Source of the DNA: Woeseiaceae bacterium
GTDB lineage: Bacteria; Pseudomonadota; Gammaproteobacteria; Steroidobacterales; Woeseiaceae
Length of the DNA: 64,000 nt
Direction of reading: 5' to 3'
Assembly: GCA_021773075.1 (NCBI GenBank)
Contig: JAJFKT010000014.1
Coordinates: 1-64,000 of the forward strand
The translations under genes were made by a program, and so were the position numbers. Under the pieces are notes generated by a model. It was not told the origin of the DNA. It saw only the letters and a list, made by a program, of their open reading frames with translations, and did no database searches. Positions 30,605 through 43,444 of this stretch are shown here, piece by piece; position 1 is the stretch's first letter; each line of letters starts with the position of its first letter.

Positions 30605-30669
30605 CTGTTGAGATTATCACGCATTGACCTGTACGGTGTTTGGCCTGTAGCGTTCGCGACACGGTTTCA

Positions 30670-32040
30670 ATGGGTCTGTCTGTGTCTGACATTAGCTATG
30701 AGCTTCCAATTCGCGGTGACGCGAACCGACGTAACGTAACGGCGTGGCTAATACTGGGCCTTATCTCCCTGATCGCGGCTGGTGTTTTTTCGATATTGCT
30801 AGTGCTTGCCAGAACACCTTTTGTGCAAGGGCTGATTCCGTTTCTTGACTTCTTCCATGTCGCACTCGTTGTACACGTCACGCTCTCAGTCCTGATCTGG
30901 CTGCTGGCGATATCGGCAGCGAGCTGGAGCCTCAGTACAACGAGTGAAAAACCGTTCTGGGATCGCGTGTCGTTTTCGTTTGCAGCACTTGGCACAGGCA
31001 TCATTATCGCTTGCCCTTTTGTCGGCGTGGGTAATCCGCTAATGAACAACTACGTGCCAATATTGCAACACCCATTGTTCTACGCTGGTCTCGTGTCATT
31101 TGCTGCCGGCATTCTCAGTCACCTGATTCGAGCAATCATCTATCGAATGAGAATTCGGGCCGAACTAAGTGGCACTGCCGCGTTGCAGGCGGGCATCACT
31201 ATCTCAACCCTGCTAACCGGTATTGCGCTTATCGCTATCATCGCGTCCTGGCGCGGTTTGCCAGCCGAAATGGATGGACAGATCTATTTTGAGTTTTTGT
31301 TTTGGGGCGGTGGGCACATCATTCAGTTCAGCTACACCTTGCTCATGATGATCGTGTGGGTCGTCCTCGCTAACAGCAGCGGCTGTCGTTTCGAGCTAAC
31401 ACCGAGACTTACGCTGGTCTTTCTTGTGTTTTTGGCGTTACCTGTCATTACGGTTCCGTTTCTTTATCTGGCGCACGAAATTACATCAGCAGGCCATCGA
31501 CTTGCGTTTACGGAACTCATGAAATACGGGGGTTTATCGTGTTTGCCACTGGGCCTCGCCGTCGCAGCAAGTCTGTGGCGCGCCAGGAAGCCGATGGGTG
31601 AACAACGCTATCTAAGAGCTGCGCTGCTTAGTTCCTTGGGATTGTTCGCAGTTGGAGGGATTCTGGGATTCATGATCGCGGGACTGGATATTGTCATTCC
31701 GGCCCACTATCACGGTGCAACTGTCGGCGTAACGATCGCCTTTATGGGACTAACTTATTATCTTTTGCCACGTTTGGGCTTCGGCGACCTGCCCGAACGC
31801 ATGGCGACCTGGCAACCCTATTTGTACGGCGGTGGACAGTTTTTACACATCATCGGACTTGCCTGGAGTGGTGGCTACGGGGTGCAACGAAAGACAGCAG
31901 GCGCGGCACAGGGACTTGAAGGGCTGGGACAAACAGCAGGAATGGGACTAATGGGCCTTGGAGGACTGATCTCTGTAATCGGAGGGCTGCTATTCTTAAT
32001 CGTTGCTTACAAGTCGATGCGGACGAGGAATTCGAAATGA
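30670..32040 (+). CDS. Lone heme-copper oxidase subunit I-like membrane protein with incomplete copper site
   Basis: From the ATG at 30670 the protein has 456 residues and about 12 membrane helices, like the catalytic subunit of heme-copper oxidases. Helix II has a haem His (VVHVTLSVLIW), helix VI a candidate CuB His (WGGGHIIQFSY) and helix X the HxH pair (VIPAHYHGATVGVTIAFMG). The His-His pair that helix VII normally gives to CuB is missing; that position reads ITVPFLY. So it binds haem but may lack a normal copper centre. No subunit II is near; a 62-residue two-helix protein follows 10 bp downstream. It may be a divergent nitric oxide reductase-like or haem-only protein. Confidence 0.7.
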   Translation: MGLSVSDISYELPIRGDANRRNVTAWLILGLISLIAAGVFSILLVLARTPFVQGLIPFLDFFHVALVVHVTLSVLIWLLAISAASWSLSTTSEKPFWDRVSFSFAALGTGIIIACPFVGVGNPLMNNYVPILQHPLFYAGLVSFAAGILSHLIRAIIYRMRIRAELSGTAALQAGITISTLLTGIALIAIIASWRGLPAEMDGQIYFEFLFWGGGHIIQFSYTLLMMIVWVVLANSSGCRFELTPRLTLVFLVFLALPVITVPFLYLAHEITSAGHRLAFTELMKYGGLSCLPLGLAVAASLWRARKPMGEQRYLRAALLSSLGLFAVGGILGFMIAGLDIVIPAHYHGATVGVTIAFMGLTYYLLPRLGFGDLPERMATWQPYLYGGGQFLHIIGLAWSGGYGVQRKTAGAAQGLEGLGQTAGMGLMGLGGLISVIGGLLFLIVAYKSMRTRNSK

Positions 32041-32254: not shown

Positions 32255-33007
32255 CTATCTCTTGGCGGCGAAAATCGCCTCCACTGCTGCCAGGTCATCT
32301 TCCGTGTCAACGCCAGGCCCGGCGGGAACCGTTGCCAACCCAACGCGCAGCTTGATGCCGAGCCACAATGCACGCAGTTGCTCGAGTTTCTCGCATTGCT
32401 CCAGCTCACAGGGGCCCGCTGCGACCAGCTTGCGCAATGCATGACATCGATATGCGTACATTCCATGATGGCGCAGGGCTATTTCACCGGGAAAACCTTC
32501 CGACGATCCATCCCGGCAAAACGGAATCGGGGCCCGGCTGAAATACAGCGCATAATTGTTGCTGTCGATGACGACTTTGGCCGAATTCGGATCATGAAAA
32601 TCCGTCCTCGAATCGAGGGGGCTGGCCAGCGTCCCCATCTCCGCGACGTCGGAGTCGAGCAGTGCGGCGCATTGGTCAATCAACTCCGGCGGCATTAGCG
32701 GCTCATCTCCCTGCAAATTCACGACCACCCGTTCATCCGGCCATCCGCGGGAATCACAAACCTCAGCGAGGCGGTCGGTACCGGACTGATGATCATCCCG
32801 TGTCATGCAGACCTTTGCGCCAAAGCCCAGCGCCACCTCCCTGATCCGCTCGTCATCCGTGGCAATCCATACTTCTTTCGCCGCACTTTGCAGCGCTCGA
32901 TCATGCACATGTCGGATCATGGGTTCGCCAGCGATCAGCCGAAGCGGTTTACCCGGCAAACGCAGACTCGCGTAACGCGACGGAATTACGACAACAAAAT
33001 CACTCAT
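32255..33007 (-). CDS. kdsB: 3-deoxy-manno-octulosonate cytidylyltransferase (CMP-KDO synthetase)
   Basis: From the ATG at 33007 the protein has 250 residues, the normal size for KdsB. It starts FVVVIPSRYASLRLPGKPL, the nucleotide-binding signature, and has VVNLQGDEPLMPPELI, YFSRAPIPFCRD and the closing GVDTEDDLAAVEAI motif. It activates KDO with CTP for lipopolysaccharide assembly, in the cytoplasm. It looks canonical, unlike the KDO-synthesis genes opposite. It is divergent from the first waaA gene (157-bp gap), so both may share a regulatory region. An in-frame ATG four codons upstream is less likely. Confidence 0.95.
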   Translation of the reverse strand: MSDFVVVIPSRYASLRLPGKPLRLIAGEPMIRHVHDRALQSAAKEVWIATDDERIREVALGFGAKVCMTRDDHQSGTDRLAEVCDSRGWPDERVVVNLQGDEPLMPPELIDQCAALLDSDVAEMGTLASPLDSRTDFHDPNSAKVVIDSNNYALYFSRAPIPFCRDGSSEGFPGEIALRHHGMYAYRCHALRKLVAAGPCELEQCEKLEQLRALWLGIKLRVGLATVPAGPGVDTEDDLAAVEAIFAAKR

Positions 33008-33164
33008 CGGACATCTCACTCACTTTCATGTTTGTTGCCGCCAAAAAACCCAGTACGATTGGACTCGTATTAATCTACCAGAAATTGTGGCCAGGCTTGC
33101 GCCGGAAATAAAGCCATCTTTGAGCCGGTCTTACAATCACAATGACCTGCGGGACAATTGAACC

Positions 33165-34490
33165 TTGTTCTTTATCGACCTTATCTACATTCTTGTGTTC
33201 ATCGTGTTATCGCCCTGGTGGTTGGCGATGCTGGTGCTGAAGCCTGCATTCAGGGAAGGGTTTTGGGCCCGATTCAGCCTCCCGGAGAACGAACCCTCAC
33301 AACACAAATCAGTTTGGTTACACGGTTCGTCCGCTGGCGAGGTCGACTTGCTGCGGCCGTTGGTGAATAGAATCGAACAACAAATGACCGGCTGCGAAAT
33401 CGTCGTCTCGGTATTTGCGATTTCCGGTTATGCAGCGGCGAAAAAGGCGTTCCCAAAACATCGTGTGATTTATTTCCCTGCCGATTTTTCGTTTGTCATT
33501 CGACGCTTTCTCAAGGTCTTGCAGCCGCAGTTAGTCGTTCTCGTCGAATCCGAGTTTTGGCCGAATTTCATCGTGACTGCGAACCGCGCCAGCGTTCCAG
33601 TGTGCTTGATTAACGGCAGGATGTCTGACAAGTCTTTTCGCGTACACCAGCGGCTACGCCTTGTCGCCTGGGCACTCAGGAAACTGTCCTTGCTTGCTGT
33701 GCAGACCGACGGCGACGCATCGCGGTTCCGCGACCTGGGTGTGGCGAAGGAGCGGCTCAGTGTTACTGGTAATATGAAGTACGACCTCAACGACCTGGGC
33801 AGGCCCGAGGAGTGGCAGAAAATACGCAGCGAACTTCGCCTGCAGTACGCCATCGATGAGGACATGACGGTTTCCATCGGCGGCAGCCTGCATCGCGGGG
33901 AAGATCTCGCTCTCGCCACGGCCTACGCGCGGCTACTGGAGGAAGGATACCGGCTGCGCATGATCATTGTGCCCCGATATCCAGCCGAATCGGCCGGCAT
34001 TGGGCGGGTTCTCGAGCAACAGGGACTTGTGCCGCAATGTAAATCGAGCGGCTCGACCGAACGCTATCGAATCGACGCTGAATCGCGGCAGGTTTTGATC
34101 GTAGACACGCTCGGAGAACTGAAAAATTTCTACGCGATGTCGGACGTTGCTTACGTTGGCGGCAGCCTGACCTACCGAGGTAGTAACAAAGGGGGCCATA
34201 ATCTCATGGAACCGGCCTCAATGGGTCTCGCCGTAATGTTCGGCCCCTATAACTACAGTTTCCGGGAAACCGTGCGAGATCTGCTCGAAGCCAGAGCCGG
34301 TATCCTTGTTCATGACGCGGATGAAATATATTCGAGTCTCAAGGGTCTATTGGATGACCCCGCGACTATTTCGGACCTCGGGGGAAGAGCGCGTGAGGTT
34401 ATATCGAAAAACCGCGGCGCAAGCGCAAGAAACATTACACTACTCAGCAACTTTATACCGCTGGCCAAGTCGGGCCGTGGAACGACATAG
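33165..34490 (+). CDS. waaA: KDO transferase, first paralogue
   Basis: The protein has 441 residues from a TTG at 33165; no ATG suits the conserved start. An N-terminal membrane anchor (about 3-25, LIYILVFIVLSPWWLAMLVL) leads to a GT-B fold with the catalytic base in HGSSAGEVD (Glu59), VVLVESEFWPNF, VTGNMKYDL and YVGGSLTYRGSNKGGHNLMEP. KdtA/WaaA transfers KDO from CMP-KDO to lipid A precursor on the inner face of the cytoplasmic membrane. A second paralogue ends this run. The stop is 17 nt before kdsA, so it is the first gene of a KDO operon. Confidence 0.92.
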   Translation: MFFIDLIYILVFIVLSPWWLAMLVLKPAFREGFWARFSLPENEPSQHKSVWLHGSSAGEVDLLRPLVNRIEQQMTGCEIVVSVFAISGYAAAKKAFPKHRVIYFPADFSFVIRRFLKVLQPQLVVLVESEFWPNFIVTANRASVPVCLINGRMSDKSFRVHQRLRLVAWALRKLSLLAVQTDGDASRFRDLGVAKERLSVTGNMKYDLNDLGRPEEWQKIRSELRLQYAIDEDMTVSIGGSLHRGEDLALATAYARLLEEGYRLRMIIVPRYPAESAGIGRVLEQQGLVPQCKSSGSTERYRIDAESRQVLIVDTLGELKNFYAMSDVAYVGGSLTYRGSNKGGHNLMEPASMGLAVMFGPYNYSFRETVRDLLEARAGILVHDADEIYSSLKGLLDDPATISDLGGRAREVISKNRGASARNITLLSNFIPLAKSGRGTT

Positions 34491-34507: not shown

Positions 34508-35359
34508 ATGAATAATGTAAAACATGTCAACGTTGCAGGTATCGACTGTGGATCAGACGATCTTTTCCTGATAAGCGGCCCATGCGTCATCGAGGAAGAG
34601 TCGATGATGATGAGAACAGCTGAGCGCCTGAAAGAGATCGCTGCAAAGCTCGGCCTGCCCCTGATTTTCAAGTCGTCCTTTACTAAGGACAATCGCAGTT
34701 CACTCGATTATTTTCAGGGACCGGGACTCGAGGAGGGACTGCGAATACTGGCGGCGATAAAGGCAGAATTCGATTTGCCGATACTCACGGACGTCCACTA
34801 CCCGGAACAGGCCGCGCCTGCGGCAGAGGTTGTTGATGTCATACAGATTCCTGCATATCTGTGTATGCAGACTGAGCTCGTCACGACAGCAGCCAAAACC
34901 GGATGTGTTATCAATCTCAAGCATGGACAGTTCATCGCACCGGAAGGAATGTCAAAGCCGGTGCAGAAAATTGAAGCGGTTGGCGGCGACAAGATTATCC
35001 TTACCGAGCGCGGCTACACCTTTGGCTACAACGACCTGATCGTCGACCCACGCAGCTTCTTTATGTTGCGAGAAGCCGGTTACCCGGTCGTTTTTGATGT
35101 CACCCACAGCATTCGAAAATACGGCATACCCAGCAAAGATCCGAAGGGCGGCACGCGACAATATCTGAATGTCCTGGCGCGTTGCGGAATTGCAGCGGGT
35201 GTCGACGGCCTGTTCGTCGAAGCGCACCCCAATCCGCCAGCTGCCTTGTGCGATGCTGCCAGCCAGTATTACCTCGACGACCTGGAAGAGTTTCTGCGGC
35301 CGTTGATCGATATCCACCAGTTAGTCAGATCGCTACCCAATCAATCAGCCGGAAATTAA
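34508..35359 (+). CDS. kdsA: 3-deoxy-8-phosphooctulonate synthase-like protein, with substituted active-site motifs
   Basis: The protein has 283 residues. The KdsA fold is clear: ISGPCVIEEESMM, LPLIFKSSFTKDNRSSLDYF, ILTDVHYPEQAAP, VIQIPAYLCMQTELV, VFDVTHSIRKYG and FVEAHPNP. It should condense PEP with arabinose 5-phosphate. It has the Cys (Cys26) and His/Glu/Asp set of the metal-dependent class. Several strongly conserved motifs are altered: KANRSS is KDNRSS, RQTDL is MQTEL and KKGQF is KHGQF. This could reflect a different aldehyde substrate. It is followed 2 nt later by the transaldolase-CBS gene. Confidence 0.85.
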   Translation: MNNVKHVNVAGIDCGSDDLFLISGPCVIEEESMMMRTAERLKEIAAKLGLPLIFKSSFTKDNRSSLDYFQGPGLEEGLRILAAIKAEFDLPILTDVHYPEQAAPAAEVVDVIQIPAYLCMQTELVTTAAKTGCVINLKHGQFIAPEGMSKPVQKIEAVGGDKIILTERGYTFGYNDLIVDPRSFFMLREAGYPVVFDVTHSIRKYGIPSKDPKGGTRQYLNVLARCGIAAGVDGLFVEAHPNPPAALCDAASQYYLDDLEEFLRPLIDIHQLVRSLPNQSAGN

Positions 35360-35361
35360 CA

Positions 35362-36396
35362 ATGGAACTATATCTCGATTCAGTCAACTTTCAGGAAATC
35401 GAAGAAGCCTTCAATCTGGGTTTCCTGACAGGTCTGACTACGACACCTACATTCATGCACCGTCATGGCATCACCGATGTCGACGGCGCAATCGTTGAAT
35501 TGTCAAAAATGGTGCCAGAGCTTCAGGTTGAGGCACTCGGCAATACGCACGACGAGATTATTGCAGAGGCACACAGAATCCTGGAGCTTCCGCTAGGACT
35601 CAAGCCGGTATTCAAGGTGCCTATATCTGAAGTCGGAGTACGTGCCTGCAAGACATTGACAGATGAGGGTCACCGGGTGAACGTACACCTCATATACACG
35701 CTCAACCAGGCCTACATGGCCATGGCGGCGGGTGCCGCGTTTGTTTGTCCGCTGGCGGGTCGCCTGCAGGACGAAGGACACGATGCGATCTCACTCTTCG
35801 AACAATGCGTCGACGTCGTTGAGAAGTACAACTACCCGACGAAAATAATGTTTTCATCGGTACGATATCCTGAGCACGTACGGCAGGCACTCATCGCCGG
35901 TGTGCACGTTTGTACTGTACCGTGGGGTGTGATGAAGAAGCTTTGCAACAATGCGCTCACGACCGTCGGCACAAACCAGTTCATCGAACACACCGCGTTG
36001 ATGACGTATCGGGTCAGTGAAGTCGTGCGCCAGGAGAACCCAATGTGCAAGACATCGGACTCCGTAACTGAGGCTATGGTCAAGATGACAGAGTCTCGGC
36101 TCGGGGCTGTGACGGTCGCCGACGACTCCGGTGATGTTCTTGGCGTCTTTACCGATGGCGATTTGCGCCGCAACATTCAGGAAAAGGGCTCGGAGGTTGT
36201 TAATTCGACACTGGGTGATCTGGGCTTTTCGGAGTCCCCGATTACGGTATCCGGCGACGCGCTTTTGAATGACGCGGTCGAGTTATTCAAGGAAACACAA
36301 GTTGACACATTGGTCGTTCTTCGTGATGACAAGCCTGTCGGAATTCTTGATATTCAGGACATCGTCAAACTTGGACTGCTTGGCCGCGATCAATGA
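35362..36396 (+). CDS. Transaldolase/fructose-6-phosphate aldolase-like domain fused to a KdsD-type CBS pair
   Basis: From the ATG at 35362 the protein has 344 residues. Residues 1-215 are a TalC/FSA-type aldolase: MELYLDSVNF opens as in FSA, and the Schiff-base lysine is in VFKVPIS at 85, the FSA position. The next 125 residues are two CBS domains close to those of arabinose-5-phosphate isomerase KdsD (LGVFTDGDLRR, PVGILDIQDIVKLGLL). KdsD's SIS catalytic domain is replaced by the aldolase. Asn28 of FSA (TTNPS) is Thr here (TTTPT), and the family's NVTLI reads NVHLI. It sits between kdsA and a kdsC-like gene, so it probably makes or controls the sugar used by KdsA. Function is inferred. Confidence 0.82.
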   Translation: MELYLDSVNFQEIEEAFNLGFLTGLTTTPTFMHRHGITDVDGAIVELSKMVPELQVEALGNTHDEIIAEAHRILELPLGLKPVFKVPISEVGVRACKTLTDEGHRVNVHLIYTLNQAYMAMAAGAAFVCPLAGRLQDEGHDAISLFEQCVDVVEKYNYPTKIMFSSVRYPEHVRQALIAGVHVCTVPWGVMKKLCNNALTTVGTNQFIEHTALMTYRVSEVVRQENPMCKTSDSVTEAMVKMTESRLGAVTVADDSGDVLGVFTDGDLRRNIQEKGSEVVNSTLGDLGFSESPITVSGDALLNDAVELFKETQVDTLVVLRDDKPVGILDIQDIVKLGLLGRDQ

Positions 36397-37112
36397 ATGC
36401 GCCAGGCAGGGACGACATGACTGCCGTCCTTGCCAACTTTCAGGCTATCGGTGCGACTTTCGTTTCGCCGTTGGGGGAAATTGCACAAAAGCTTGGAAAT
36501 TGCCGCGCCGTAGTCTTTGACTGGGACGGCGTTTTCAACGATGGCCGAAAAGGCCAAACAAGCGACAGCGGCTTCAGCGAAGCGGATTCGATGGGCACCA
36601 ACATGCTTCGCTACGCATTGTGGCGCAAGTTAGGGCAACTACCGTATTCGGCAATCATCAGCGGCGAGAACAACGGCAGTGCCGTTAAATTTGCGAAGCG
36701 TGAGCACCTGACGGACGTTTATACCGGGATCGCGGACAAGCGACTCATCATTAACCGTATTTGCCAAAGCCAGGGCTTGGAACCGGATCAGATCGCCTGC
36801 GTGTTTGACGACATCAACGACCTCCCGATGGCCGGTCTTTGTGGCATTCGACTGATGGTTCGCAGAAATGCCAGCCCGCTATTTGCAAAATATGTTGCGC
36901 GTCGCTTCTTATGCGACTACGTCAGCGGCGTTGATTCGCAGCATTATGCCGTCAGAGAAATCTGTGAAATGTTGCTGGGTGTAATGGGTTGTTACGGCGA
37001 GGTCGTGACCTCACGCGTTTCGCTGGACAAGGAATACCGCGATTATCTGGATGCCCGGCAAAGTGTCGTAACCGGAGCATACAACAGCAGTGAGCTCGGG
37101 AATCAGGATTGA
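36393..37112 (+). CDS. KdsC-like HAD phosphatase, enlarged
   Basis: The protein has 239 residues, about 50 more than E. coli KdsC. The HAD motif I is VVFDWDGVFNDG (Asp43, Asp45), motif II is in IISGENNGSAVKF and the metal-binding motif IV is VFDDINDLPMAG. The C-terminal part (about 190-239) is an extension with no clear motif. KdsC hydrolyses KDO 8-phosphate; the position after kdsA and the transaldolase-CBS gene fits that role, but motif changes (DSMGTNML in place of the usual DGxGI) leave room for a related sugar. The start overlaps the previous stop by 4 nt. An alternative ATG is at 36417. Confidence 0.8.
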   Translation: MNAPGRDDMTAVLANFQAIGATFVSPLGEIAQKLGNCRAVVFDWDGVFNDGRKGQTSDSGFSEADSMGTNMLRYALWRKLGQLPYSAIISGENNGSAVKFAKREHLTDVYTGIADKRLIINRICQSQGLEPDQIACVFDDINDLPMAGLCGIRLMVRRNASPLFAKYVARRFLCDYVSGVDSQHYAVREICEMLLGVMGCYGEVVTSRVSLDKEYRDYLDARQSVVTGAYNSSELGNQD

Positions 37113-41731: not shown

Positions 41732-43444
41732 TTAAGACATTGGCCAGACCGACGCCAAGTATTTCCAGTTGACGGCGTAATACAACACAAAGGTAAGCAG
41801 GAAGAACATCGCGAGCAGAAATGTGCCCGGAGCCGCCAGCCCCCATTTACCCAATGCTTCATGACCACCTTGCGGCACCACAATCGGCTCGGCACGCCGA
41901 ACTTTACTGCTCGCAAAACCGAAACTTGATTCCGACTCAACCGGCTTGCCGAAGAACACTGACACGACGGTCACGAGAATGTACATCGCACCACCCACTA
42001 TGGCGACCAAGCCGCCAACACCCATGATGCCCATCATAGTGTAGGCGCTGGCAGGATATACGAAATCGAGCGTTGCATTCGTGAATGCCATGTCCCAATG
42101 ACGGCGTTCTACGCCCAGCGTTCCGGCGCCCATCATCGCCAGTGCGAATACGGACATGCCAAGACCGAAGAAATATGGTTGTAAGCGCGCAATACTCGGA
42201 AACGCAACCTGCTTTCTGAAAAGTGTTGGAATCAGGAAGTAGGTCAGCGACATGAATGCCAGCGTTGATCCGATCACGACAGTCGCATGGAAATGTCCGG
42301 GCACGTAGATCGTGTTGTGAATAATAATATTGATCTGCTCGGTTCCCATCACTACACCCGAGATTCCACCGAGGAAGCCAAAACCGATCAACGAAATGAA
42401 CATGCCCGAAAAAATCGGATTCCCCCATGGCGCCTTGCGTAGCCACTGAAACAGTCCATTGGTATATCCTTTCGCGCGCTGCGCTACTTCGATCGAGCCA
42501 GGAACAGTCAAACCGTGAACCATGCTTGCAAGTACCGCCAGGTACATTGCGTAGCTCGTGTTGAAGATCTTCCATTCCGCACTAAGACCCGGGTCAACGA
42601 GCAAATGATGCGCGCTGGCGAGTTGCAGGAATGCGATGTAAAGAAAGAACGCCATGCGACTGACTTTTTCGGACAATGGTCGGGCGCCGAAGACGATTGC
42701 CGCAATGGCATACCAAACGGCGACATGAGCCGCGACATTAATTTGCTGCGATGAATGGCCCAGGGCCCACCAGACTACACGGTACATAGCGGCATCAATG
42801 TTATTGACGTAACCGAGCGACCAAAGCCAGGTCGGCACCAGAATGACCGCACCGGATGCGATCGTAAACACCGCGATGATGCATGCCGTTAATGCGCCGA
42901 ACGTTACCAGCGGAATGGAGCCCTCGTAGGTTTTTTCATCTTTCGCAACAACCAGGGTCGCCAGAAAAATGAAACAACCGATCAAGGCGCCAACCGCGAA
43001 TAGAATCAGTCCGAGATAAAAATTTGGGTCAGCAGGCATCGGCACATATGAGGTCATCATGACCGATGCGTTGCCGCCATACACGGCGTAGTTATTGACG
43101 ACGATTCCAAGCAGCATCAGCGTGAATCCAAGCCAAGCCAGTTTCGGCGTCGCCAGCCGTACCTTCAACAAGGTTGACGAACAAAAATACAAAATCGCGA
43201 TCTCGAAGGAAATCATCCAGAAAATCAACATGTTAACGCCGTGCGTCGTCAACAGTTGGTAAAACCTGTCCGCCGGAAGAAGATGCACAGCAGGCATACG
43301 AGTCAAAGTAACCAATAAGGCAGCAATGCCGCCAATCAGGAGGATAACCACAGCGACGACAGCGTGTGCTTTCATCAAGCGCTCTGCAGGCTTGTGGAAC
43401 TGCAGTCCAGACTCCGGGCAAGTTCTAAATAGTTCGGTACTCAT
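41732..43444 (-). CDS. Heme-copper reductase catalytic subunit, sNOR-like (NO or O2 reductase)
   Basis: The protein has 570 residues and about 12-14 helices. All six metal histidines are seen: helix II THGVNMLIFW, helix VI LGHSSQQIN, helix VII SAHHLLVD, helix X PGHFHATVV. The cross-linked Tyr typical of oxygen reductases is absent at helix VI +4 (Ile) and at the cbb3 position six residues before the His pair (Leu). That, and the order CuA subunit - catalytic subunit - SenC, suggests an sNOR-type nitric oxide reductase as in norSY-senC clusters of nitrifiers; annotation pipelines usually call such proteins cbb3 oxidase subunit I. A run of ten G lies just after the stop (plus strand). Confidence 0.75.
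   Translation of the reverse strand: MSTELFRTCPESGLQFHKPAERLMKAHAVVAVVILLIGGIAALLVTLTRMPAVHLLPADRFYQLLTTHGVNMLIFWMISFEIAILYFCSSTLLKVRLATPKLAWLGFTLMLLGIVVNNYAVYGGNASVMMTSYVPMPADPNFYLGLILFAVGALIGCFIFLATLVVAKDEKTYEGSIPLVTFGALTACIIAVFTIASGAVILVPTWLWSLGYVNNIDAAMYRVVWWALGHSSQQINVAAHVAVWYAIAAIVFGARPLSEKVSRMAFFLYIAFLQLASAHHLLVDPGLSAEWKIFNTSYAMYLAVLASMVHGLTVPGSIEVAQRAKGYTNGLFQWLRKAPWGNPIFSGMFISLIGFGFLGGISGVVMGTEQINIIIHNTIYVPGHFHATVVIGSTLAFMSLTYFLIPTLFRKQVAFPSIARLQPYFFGLGMSVFALAMMGAGTLGVERRHWDMAFTNATLDFVYPASAYTMMGIMGVGGLVAIVGGAMYILVTVVSVFFGKPVESESSFGFASSKVRRAEPIVVPQGGHEALGKWGLAAPGTFLLAMFFLLTFVLYYAVNWKYLASVWPMS

Follow-up and report, generated by a model that had tools for sequence, protein, structure and literature searches.

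An aldolase–CBS fusion encoded beside kdsA is a candidate supplier of the KDO precursor arabinose 5-phosphate

The window analyzed here, a stretch of 64,000 nucleotides from a Woeseiaceae bacterium (GenBank assembly GCA_021773075.1, contig JAJFKT010000014.1; genome G000 below), carries an operon for the synthesis of KDO, which is a core sugar in the outer membrane of Gram-negative bacteria. KDO synthesis is textbook biochemistry, usually essential, and serves as a target for antibacterials; the first committed step is ascribed to a single isomerase family. The family member KdsD, which consists of a SIS isomerase domain and CBS domains, supplies D-arabinose 5-phosphate (A5P) to KdsA. In the operon of the window, the gene that follows kdsA encodes an aldolase barrel fused to a CBS pair (Table 1). 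The five genes run in the order waaA-like, kdsA2, fusion, HADx and waaA, all on the forward strand. The first two gaps measure 17 and 2 nt; after them, the fusion gene overlaps HADx by 4 nt, and HADx overlaps the second waaA by 4 nt. The 2-nt gap lies between kdsA2 and the fusion gene, in agreement with the initial annotation. Two WaaA homologues thus stand in one operon, and a third was found elsewhere in the genome, after an hldE-like gene; the first of the two is divergent and scores below the WaaA cut-offs, so its acceptor or its donor may be a different one. The KDO cluster is flanked by long membrane proteins (30640-32040 and 41732-43444) that, when their translations were read by eye, resembled the main subunits of haem-copper oxidases.

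Table 1. Genes of the KDO cluster in the window.
Feature	Coordinates	Strand	Remarks
kdsB, CMP-KDO synthetase, 254 aa, divergently oriented	32255..33019	-	sole kdsB match in genome
waaA/kdtA-like transferase, 441 aa, divergent, first gene of operon	33165..34490	+	below all five NCBIfam WaaA cut-offs matched
kdsA2, KDO8P synthase paralogue, 283 aa, Cys26 (metal-type residue)	34508..35359	+	above two of three NCBIfam KDO8P synthase equivalog cut-offs
aldolase-CBS fusion gene, 344 aa	35362..36396	+	TAL/FSA barrel at about residues 1-213, CBS pair at about 214-341
HADx, distant KdsC-like HAD phosphatase, 239 aa, extra N- and C-terminal parts	36393..37112	+	DxD, Lys and DD kept
waaA/kdtA-type KDO transferase, 431 aa	37109..38404	+	above PRK05749.1-4 cut-off

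Residues 3-219 of the fusion protein matched the Pfam family TAL_FSA (PF00923) at 108.5 bits, against a cut-off of 27. The barrel was closer to TalC transaldolases (29-33% identity) than to FSA (21-23%), and its Lys85 aligned with Lys85 of E. coli FsaA. The Pfam match and this alignment bear out the initial reading of a TalC/FSA-type barrel with a lysine at the Schiff-base position. Against the NCBIfam model fsa_talC_mipB (TIGR00875), residues 1-209 scored 144.1 bits, below the equivalog cut-off of 245.95, and by this sequence measure the protein lies outside the named equivalog. The C-terminal part matched the Pfam CBS family in two stretches (65.2 bits against a cut-off of 24). The assignment of this CBS pair to the KdsD subtype, also made initially, was confirmed: residues 216-339 or thereabouts matched the CBS part of the NCBIfam kpsF, KdsD and GutQ models, the best sequence match was the KdsD CBS pair of PDB 4o9k, and the top fold matches in Foldseek were 4o9k and 3k2v. 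No match to a SIS domain, the isomerase domain that marks KdsD, was found in the fusion protein with Pfam. The AlphaFold2 models were of high confidence: that of the whole fusion had a pLDDT of 91.0 and a pTM of 0.68, and that of the CBS pair alone a pLDDT of 90.3.

The fusion is under purifying selection, with a dN/dS of 0.05-0.06 against two loci titled Woeseiaceae, at saturated dS; for KdsA2, the value was 0.03, also at saturated dS. In genomes of the window's order, 19 homologues were 61-84% identical to the window protein; 18 of them cover nearly its full length, and one ends at a contig edge, at residue 325. This conservation of homologues, together with the dN/dS values, rules out a chance reading frame or a chance fusion. 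Fusions of other phyla were 59-73% identical to that of the window. The CBS pairs of 37 fusions (the window and 36 loci) grouped apart from 15 KdsD CBS pairs, with a support of 100/99 from a bootstrap that had not fully settled, which is in line with a single origin of the fusions.

According to a study of FSA (PMC13259622), Asp6 and Asn28 serve donor recognition, and Gln59, Thr109 and Tyr131 serve the catalytic water. Compared with E. coli FsaA, the fusion keeps Asp6, Lys85, Arg134 and Ser166 and has Thr for Asn28, Glu57 for Gln59, Asn for Leu107, His for Thr109, Cys for Ala129, Leu for Tyr131 and Arg for Lys168. The FSA donor and water-site residues are thus replaced by Thr28, Glu57, His109 and Leu131. 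Compared with three TalC enzymes (1vpx, 3r8r and 1wx0), Glu57 and Asn107 agree, and Thr28, His109 and Leu131 differ, Asn and Phe being the TalC residues at positions 28 and 131; the positions taken to discriminate TalC, E60 and F132 of the T. acidophilum enzyme, were read from the variant title of PDB entry 4xz9. Thr28, Glu57, Lys85, Asn107, His109 and Leu131 were invariant in 80 of 80 rows of the alignment, from which the short L103 had been left out of the 80 loci with a fusion match. Of the two patterns used in the search for this set of best 80 loci, one was the Thr28 motif, so that the constancy of Thr28 in it is partly selected; however, Thr28, His109 and Leu131 were also invariant in the 20 fusions (the window and 19 others) that were found without the motif pattern. 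Since the donor and water-site residues of FSA are changed and Lys85 is kept, the donor site and the proton relay were rebuilt around a retained Schiff-base lysine. With Asn28, Thr109 and Tyr131 altered, FSA chemistry is not simply transferable to the fusion.

Among the partner enzymes, KdsA2 exceeded two NCBIfam equivalog cut-offs for KDO8P synthase (344.8 bits against 242 and 330.9 against 314) and fell below a third (281.7 against 457). It keeps K55, K60, N62, R63, S64, K138, R168, H202, E239 and D250 of E. coli KdsA. Key residues of the Neisseria KDO8P synthase are listed in PMC6650799, and K55, K60, R63, K138, R168 and H202 would correspond to these at a constant offset of five. Relative to E. 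coli KdsA, KdsA2 has the changes A61D, R120M and K139H, and it has R203 and a loop 7 of G206-I207-P208-S209 (GIPS); each of these was found in 54 of 54 rows, after L049 (cut) and L101 (broken frame) had been left out of the 55 loci with a kdsA match. PMC6650799 names this loop for A5P binding. Where the motif given in PMC3052366 reads Cys-Asp-Gly-Pro, KdsA2 has an alanine after Cys-Asp; this was considered as a hallmark of KdsA2 and dropped, because the KdsA1 of genome G064 (see below) also has it. HADx stayed below both KdsC cut-offs (46.1 bits against 208 and 45 against 106.95), and its catalytic motifs DxD, Lys and DD are kept.

The initial annotation had found the SIS isomerase absent from this cluster and had proposed that an aldolase route replaced it or that a modified octulosonate is made. 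The absence holds for the KDO cluster but not for the genome: a search of G000 for SIS domains returned nine matches, including a SIS+CBS KdsD of 327 aa on a different contig, where KdsC is the next gene. Loss of KdsD from this genome is thereby ruled out. A second kdsA (KdsA1), 49% identical to kdsA2 of the window, lies between pyrG- and eno-like genes (these and the hldE-like neighbor were named by reading translations). KdsB gave one match only, and the fusion was the sole TAL_FSA protein found. At a completeness of 95.8% and a contamination of 6.96%, counts of single and extra copies in this genome need care. Since the fusion module coexists with KdsD and KdsA1 in G000, it is a second, parallel route there. 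The proposed replacement therefore fails for G000, which retains KdsD-KdsC and a second kdsA, and finds support in its relatives, where fusion and KdsD are mostly mutually exclusive in two unrelated orders and where 14 of 21 carriers yielded no kdsA but the one linked to the fusion.

In the window's order, the fusion was found in 21 of 196 genomes (E <= 1e-40) and KdsD in 173 of 196 (E <= 1e-60). KdsD was undetected in 16 of the 21 carriers versus 7 of the 175 non-carriers (Fisher p = 3e-14), the remaining 168 non-carriers having KdsD. Five carriers have KdsD (G000, G157, G095, G116 and G140), and a looser search of the 21 carriers (E <= 1e-20) returned the same five genomes. One of these, G140, which has both KdsD and the fusion, contains an extra SIS-type match (L043, G140:C56:16077-16658), a 198-aa frame 42% identical to KdsD residues 9-203. 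When the comparison was confined to the 145 genomes with a completeness of 90% or more and a contamination of 5% or less, 8 of the 10 carriers were without KdsD (Fisher p = 1e-10), and a single other genome lacked it, so that 8 of the 9 KdsD-less genomes were carriers. These Fisher tests take genomes as independent, kinship being uncorrected, and an absence of KdsD from a draft genome may reflect an assembly gap; in G045, of the window's order, the fusion gene itself is split in two pieces over two contigs.

The exclusion was repeated independently in another phylum. In the order of Thermonema (Bacteroidota, 148 genomes), KdsD was found above the curated cut-off in 72 genomes and the fusion in 54, three of the fusion matches being partial (G292, G318 and G367). 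KdsD was undetected in 52 of these 54 carriers versus 24 of 94 non-carriers (Fisher p = 1.5e-18), and both genes occurred in two genomes (G308 and G331). Neither gene was found in 24 genomes, 20 of which are 0.7-1.8 Mb in size, the exceptions being G254, G277, G286 and G364.

The fusion is also widespread beyond these two orders. A profile built from 20 fusions (the window and 19 others) was scanned over genome contigs and returned 530 related stretches, and the analysis continued with the best 80. The records of these 80 are titled Woeseiaceae, other Gammaproteobacteria, Desulfobacterales, Candidatus Scalindua and Bacteroidota, lineage here being taken from record titles rather than from a tree. 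Cultured carriers among the best 80 are Thermonema rossianum, Raineya orbicola and Thermoflexibacter ruber, in all three of which KdsD was undetected. In the NCBI taxonomy, T. rossianum belongs to the Cytophagales of Bacteroidota and Woeseiaceae to Gammaproteobacteria. In the genomes of 50 of the best 80 loci, full-length KdsD was found in five; eight further KdsD matches covered the CBS part only, in frames of 336-385 aa, as expected from the fusion itself. Within the best 80 of the 530 loci, no KdsD match was found beyond the CBS part of the fusion.

A survey of the fusion beside kdsA, suggested with the initial annotation, showed the linkage to be common. Among the best 80 of the 530 loci, kdsA lies immediately upstream in 53 and downstream in 2 (same strand, <350 bp), HADx lies immediately downstream in 53, and one or the other adjoins the fusion in 65. 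This was the case for all 42 loci outside Bacteroidota and for 23 of the 38 loci titled as Bacteroidota, the fusion standing alone in the other 15. In several Desulfobacterales loci, the order is waaA-kdsB-kdsA2-fusion-HADx, which is a KDO operon without the isomerase; in L107 this is followed by a glycosyltransferase-like gene, as judged from its translation. Two Candidatus Scalindua loci (L077 and L079) have the reversed order, with the fusion before kdsA2, and a waaA-like gene behind on the other strand. In Thermoflexibacter ruber, a KDPG-aldolase-like gene, named from its translation, lies directly upstream of the fusion (L110:9150-9830). Such a gene is absent from the other 79 loci, and a conserved second aldolase was therefore dropped from consideration.

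In all 21 carriers of the window's order, a kdsA of the KdsA2 type, 45-50% identical to KdsA1, lies on the contig of the fusion. KdsA1 is present as well in seven carriers; in the other 14, nothing else matched kdsA. Two genomes of one genus, G064 and G136 (93% and 88% complete), have a KdsA1 that is 63-65% identical to that of G000 and lies behind a pyrG-like gene, in G064 with an eno-like gene after it, and KdsD was detected in neither. If KdsD is truly absent from these genomes, the fusion must feed a canonical KdsA, i.e., make A5P.

Thus, the fusion is real and widespread, and it stands where KdsD is missing in most of the carriers examined. Because it lies beside kdsA, and mostly where KdsD is missing, it probably makes the KDO precursor by a different reaction. 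The reading that we favor, and consider moderately probable, is that a CBS-regulated class I (Schiff-base) aldolase supplies the adjacent KdsA with its aldose phosphate, most likely A5P, and so replaces KdsD. The substrate, product and CBS ligand that we infer are as follows. Lys85 would bind a small carbonyl donor, most plausibly glycolaldehyde, as a Schiff base; the enamine would add to glyceraldehyde 3-phosphate (GAP), and A5P would be released. KdsA2 would then join A5P to phosphoenolpyruvate, HADx would remove the 8-phosphate, KdsB would activate the acid, and WaaA would transfer it to lipid A. The CBS pair of KdsD binds CMP-KDO, and the pair of the same kind in the fusion has probably retained a role in feedback on the committed precursor. 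Formation of A5P by FSA-type chemistry, as initially suggested, is plausible: PMC6900487 reports that E. coli FsaA interconverts A5P and glycolaldehyde plus GAP, with a KM of 0.65 mM and a kcat of 3.6 per s for cleavage, and cites an earlier study in which specificity was higher with A5P than with fructose 6-phosphate.

Some observations do not sit easily with this proposal. KdsD is kept in G000 and four other carriers of its order, in 5 of the 50 genomes from the best-80 set and in 2 of the 54 carriers of the Thermonema order, which speaks against replacement there. The barrel is nearer to TalC than to FSA, and its Glu57 and Asn107 are of transaldolase type, against an FSA-like synthesis of A5P. 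A5P could instead be formed by transaldol release from octulose 8-phosphate, a sub-case with the same product and role that we regard as doubtful. The nearest solved relatives of the barrel are TalC transaldolases, which it also resembles at Glu57 and Asn107, and the route fits this TalC affinity (PMC5854111). However, the donor-contact Asn28, shared by FsaA and the three TalC enzymes, is replaced by Thr in the fusions, which points to a donor that is not a dihydroxyacetone unit, and Phe/Tyr131 is Leu. The supply of glycolaldehyde is the weakest point of the aldol route, and the changed donor contact is that of the transaldol route. An ordinary transaldolase of the pentose phosphate pathway that lies in a lipopolysaccharide operon by chance, its CBS pair sensing the energy state, is very improbable. 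That the fusion is the sole TAL_FSA protein found in G000 would favor it; the adjacency of kdsA or the phosphatase to the fusion in 65 of the best 80 of 530 loci, the avoidance of KdsD in two orders, the KdsD-type CBS pair and the altered transaldolase residues all argue against it, as does a second TAL_FSA-like stretch near the fusion of L113 (L113:15868-16500, 32% identity, about 5 kb away).

The differences of KdsA2 from KdsA1 at A61, R120, K139 and loop 7, along with the missed third cut-off, could also mean another substrate. In that case, the fusion, KdsA2 and HADx might form a module for a different ulosonate, altered in stereochemistry, chain length or substitution, which KdsB would activate and WaaA transfer, in place of KDO or beside it. 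We consider this unlikely, although three consecutive enzymes differ from their KDO counterparts at positions kept over phyla, HADx is a distant relative of KdsC (46.1 bits against 208), and the module would be redundant beside the KdsD, KdsC and KdsA1 of G000 if the products were the same. Against it, KdsA2 keeps its catalytic and phosphate-site residues and surpasses two of the three KDO8P synthase cut-offs, G000 has a single KdsB match, KdsD-less carriers would have no other lipid A ulosonate than this product, and G064 and G136 have KdsA1 with no detected KdsD. Because the three module enzymes depart from their textbook counterparts at conserved positions, a modified octulosonate nevertheless keeps some probability. 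It is likewise a tentative suggestion, and an unlikely one, that beside the textbook route several phyla have a parallel one that starts with an aldolase, and that in certain lineages the latter yields a KDO analogue, with fusion, KdsA2 and HADx as a set matched to a different intermediate.

No report of an aldolase-CBS fusion beside kdsA was found in the open-licence literature, and earlier publication is still possible. If the supply of A5P by the fusion is correct, it would represent a non-orthologous replacement of an isomerase by a C-C bond-forming enzyme in Bacteroidota, Gammaproteobacteria, Desulfobacterales and Scalindua, as named by record titles, with one regulatory module, the CBS pair, placed on two unrelated enzymes for the same step. 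It would also close a gap in metabolic models, put right annotations such as transaldolase and offer a naturally occurring aldolase whose active-site set is new. If the KDO-analogue reading were true instead, an inner-core sugar of many Gram-negative species would so far have gone unrecognised. Which ulosonate the carriers use becomes directly testable.

Like KdsD, GutQ and KpsF, the fusion has a C-terminal CBS pair of the same subtype and a place in the KDO pathway, and the occurrence of the two kinds is largely exclusive in two orders. Unlike them, it has an unrelated TIM-barrel aldolase and no SIS domain, and its CBS pairs form a group of their own. With the TalC/FSA enzymes (PF00923) it shares the barrel fold, Lys85, Asp6, Arg134 and Ser166, and the TalC-like Glu57 and Asn107, whereas N28T, T109H, Y/F131L, the C-terminal CBS pair, a score under the equivalog cut-off and the linkage to kdsA set it apart. 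Similarly, KdsA2 resembles KdsA in its catalytic, PEP and phosphate residues and in scoring above two of three equivalog cut-offs, and differs from it in D61, M120, H139 and the GIPS loop 7, found in 54 of 54 rows. A further parallel is LmbR of lincomycin synthesis, which is described as a transaldolase in PMC5854111. The likeness, drawn from this description, is that of a transaldolase-family enzyme recruited for an unusual sugar phosphate, although the pathway of LmbR differs.
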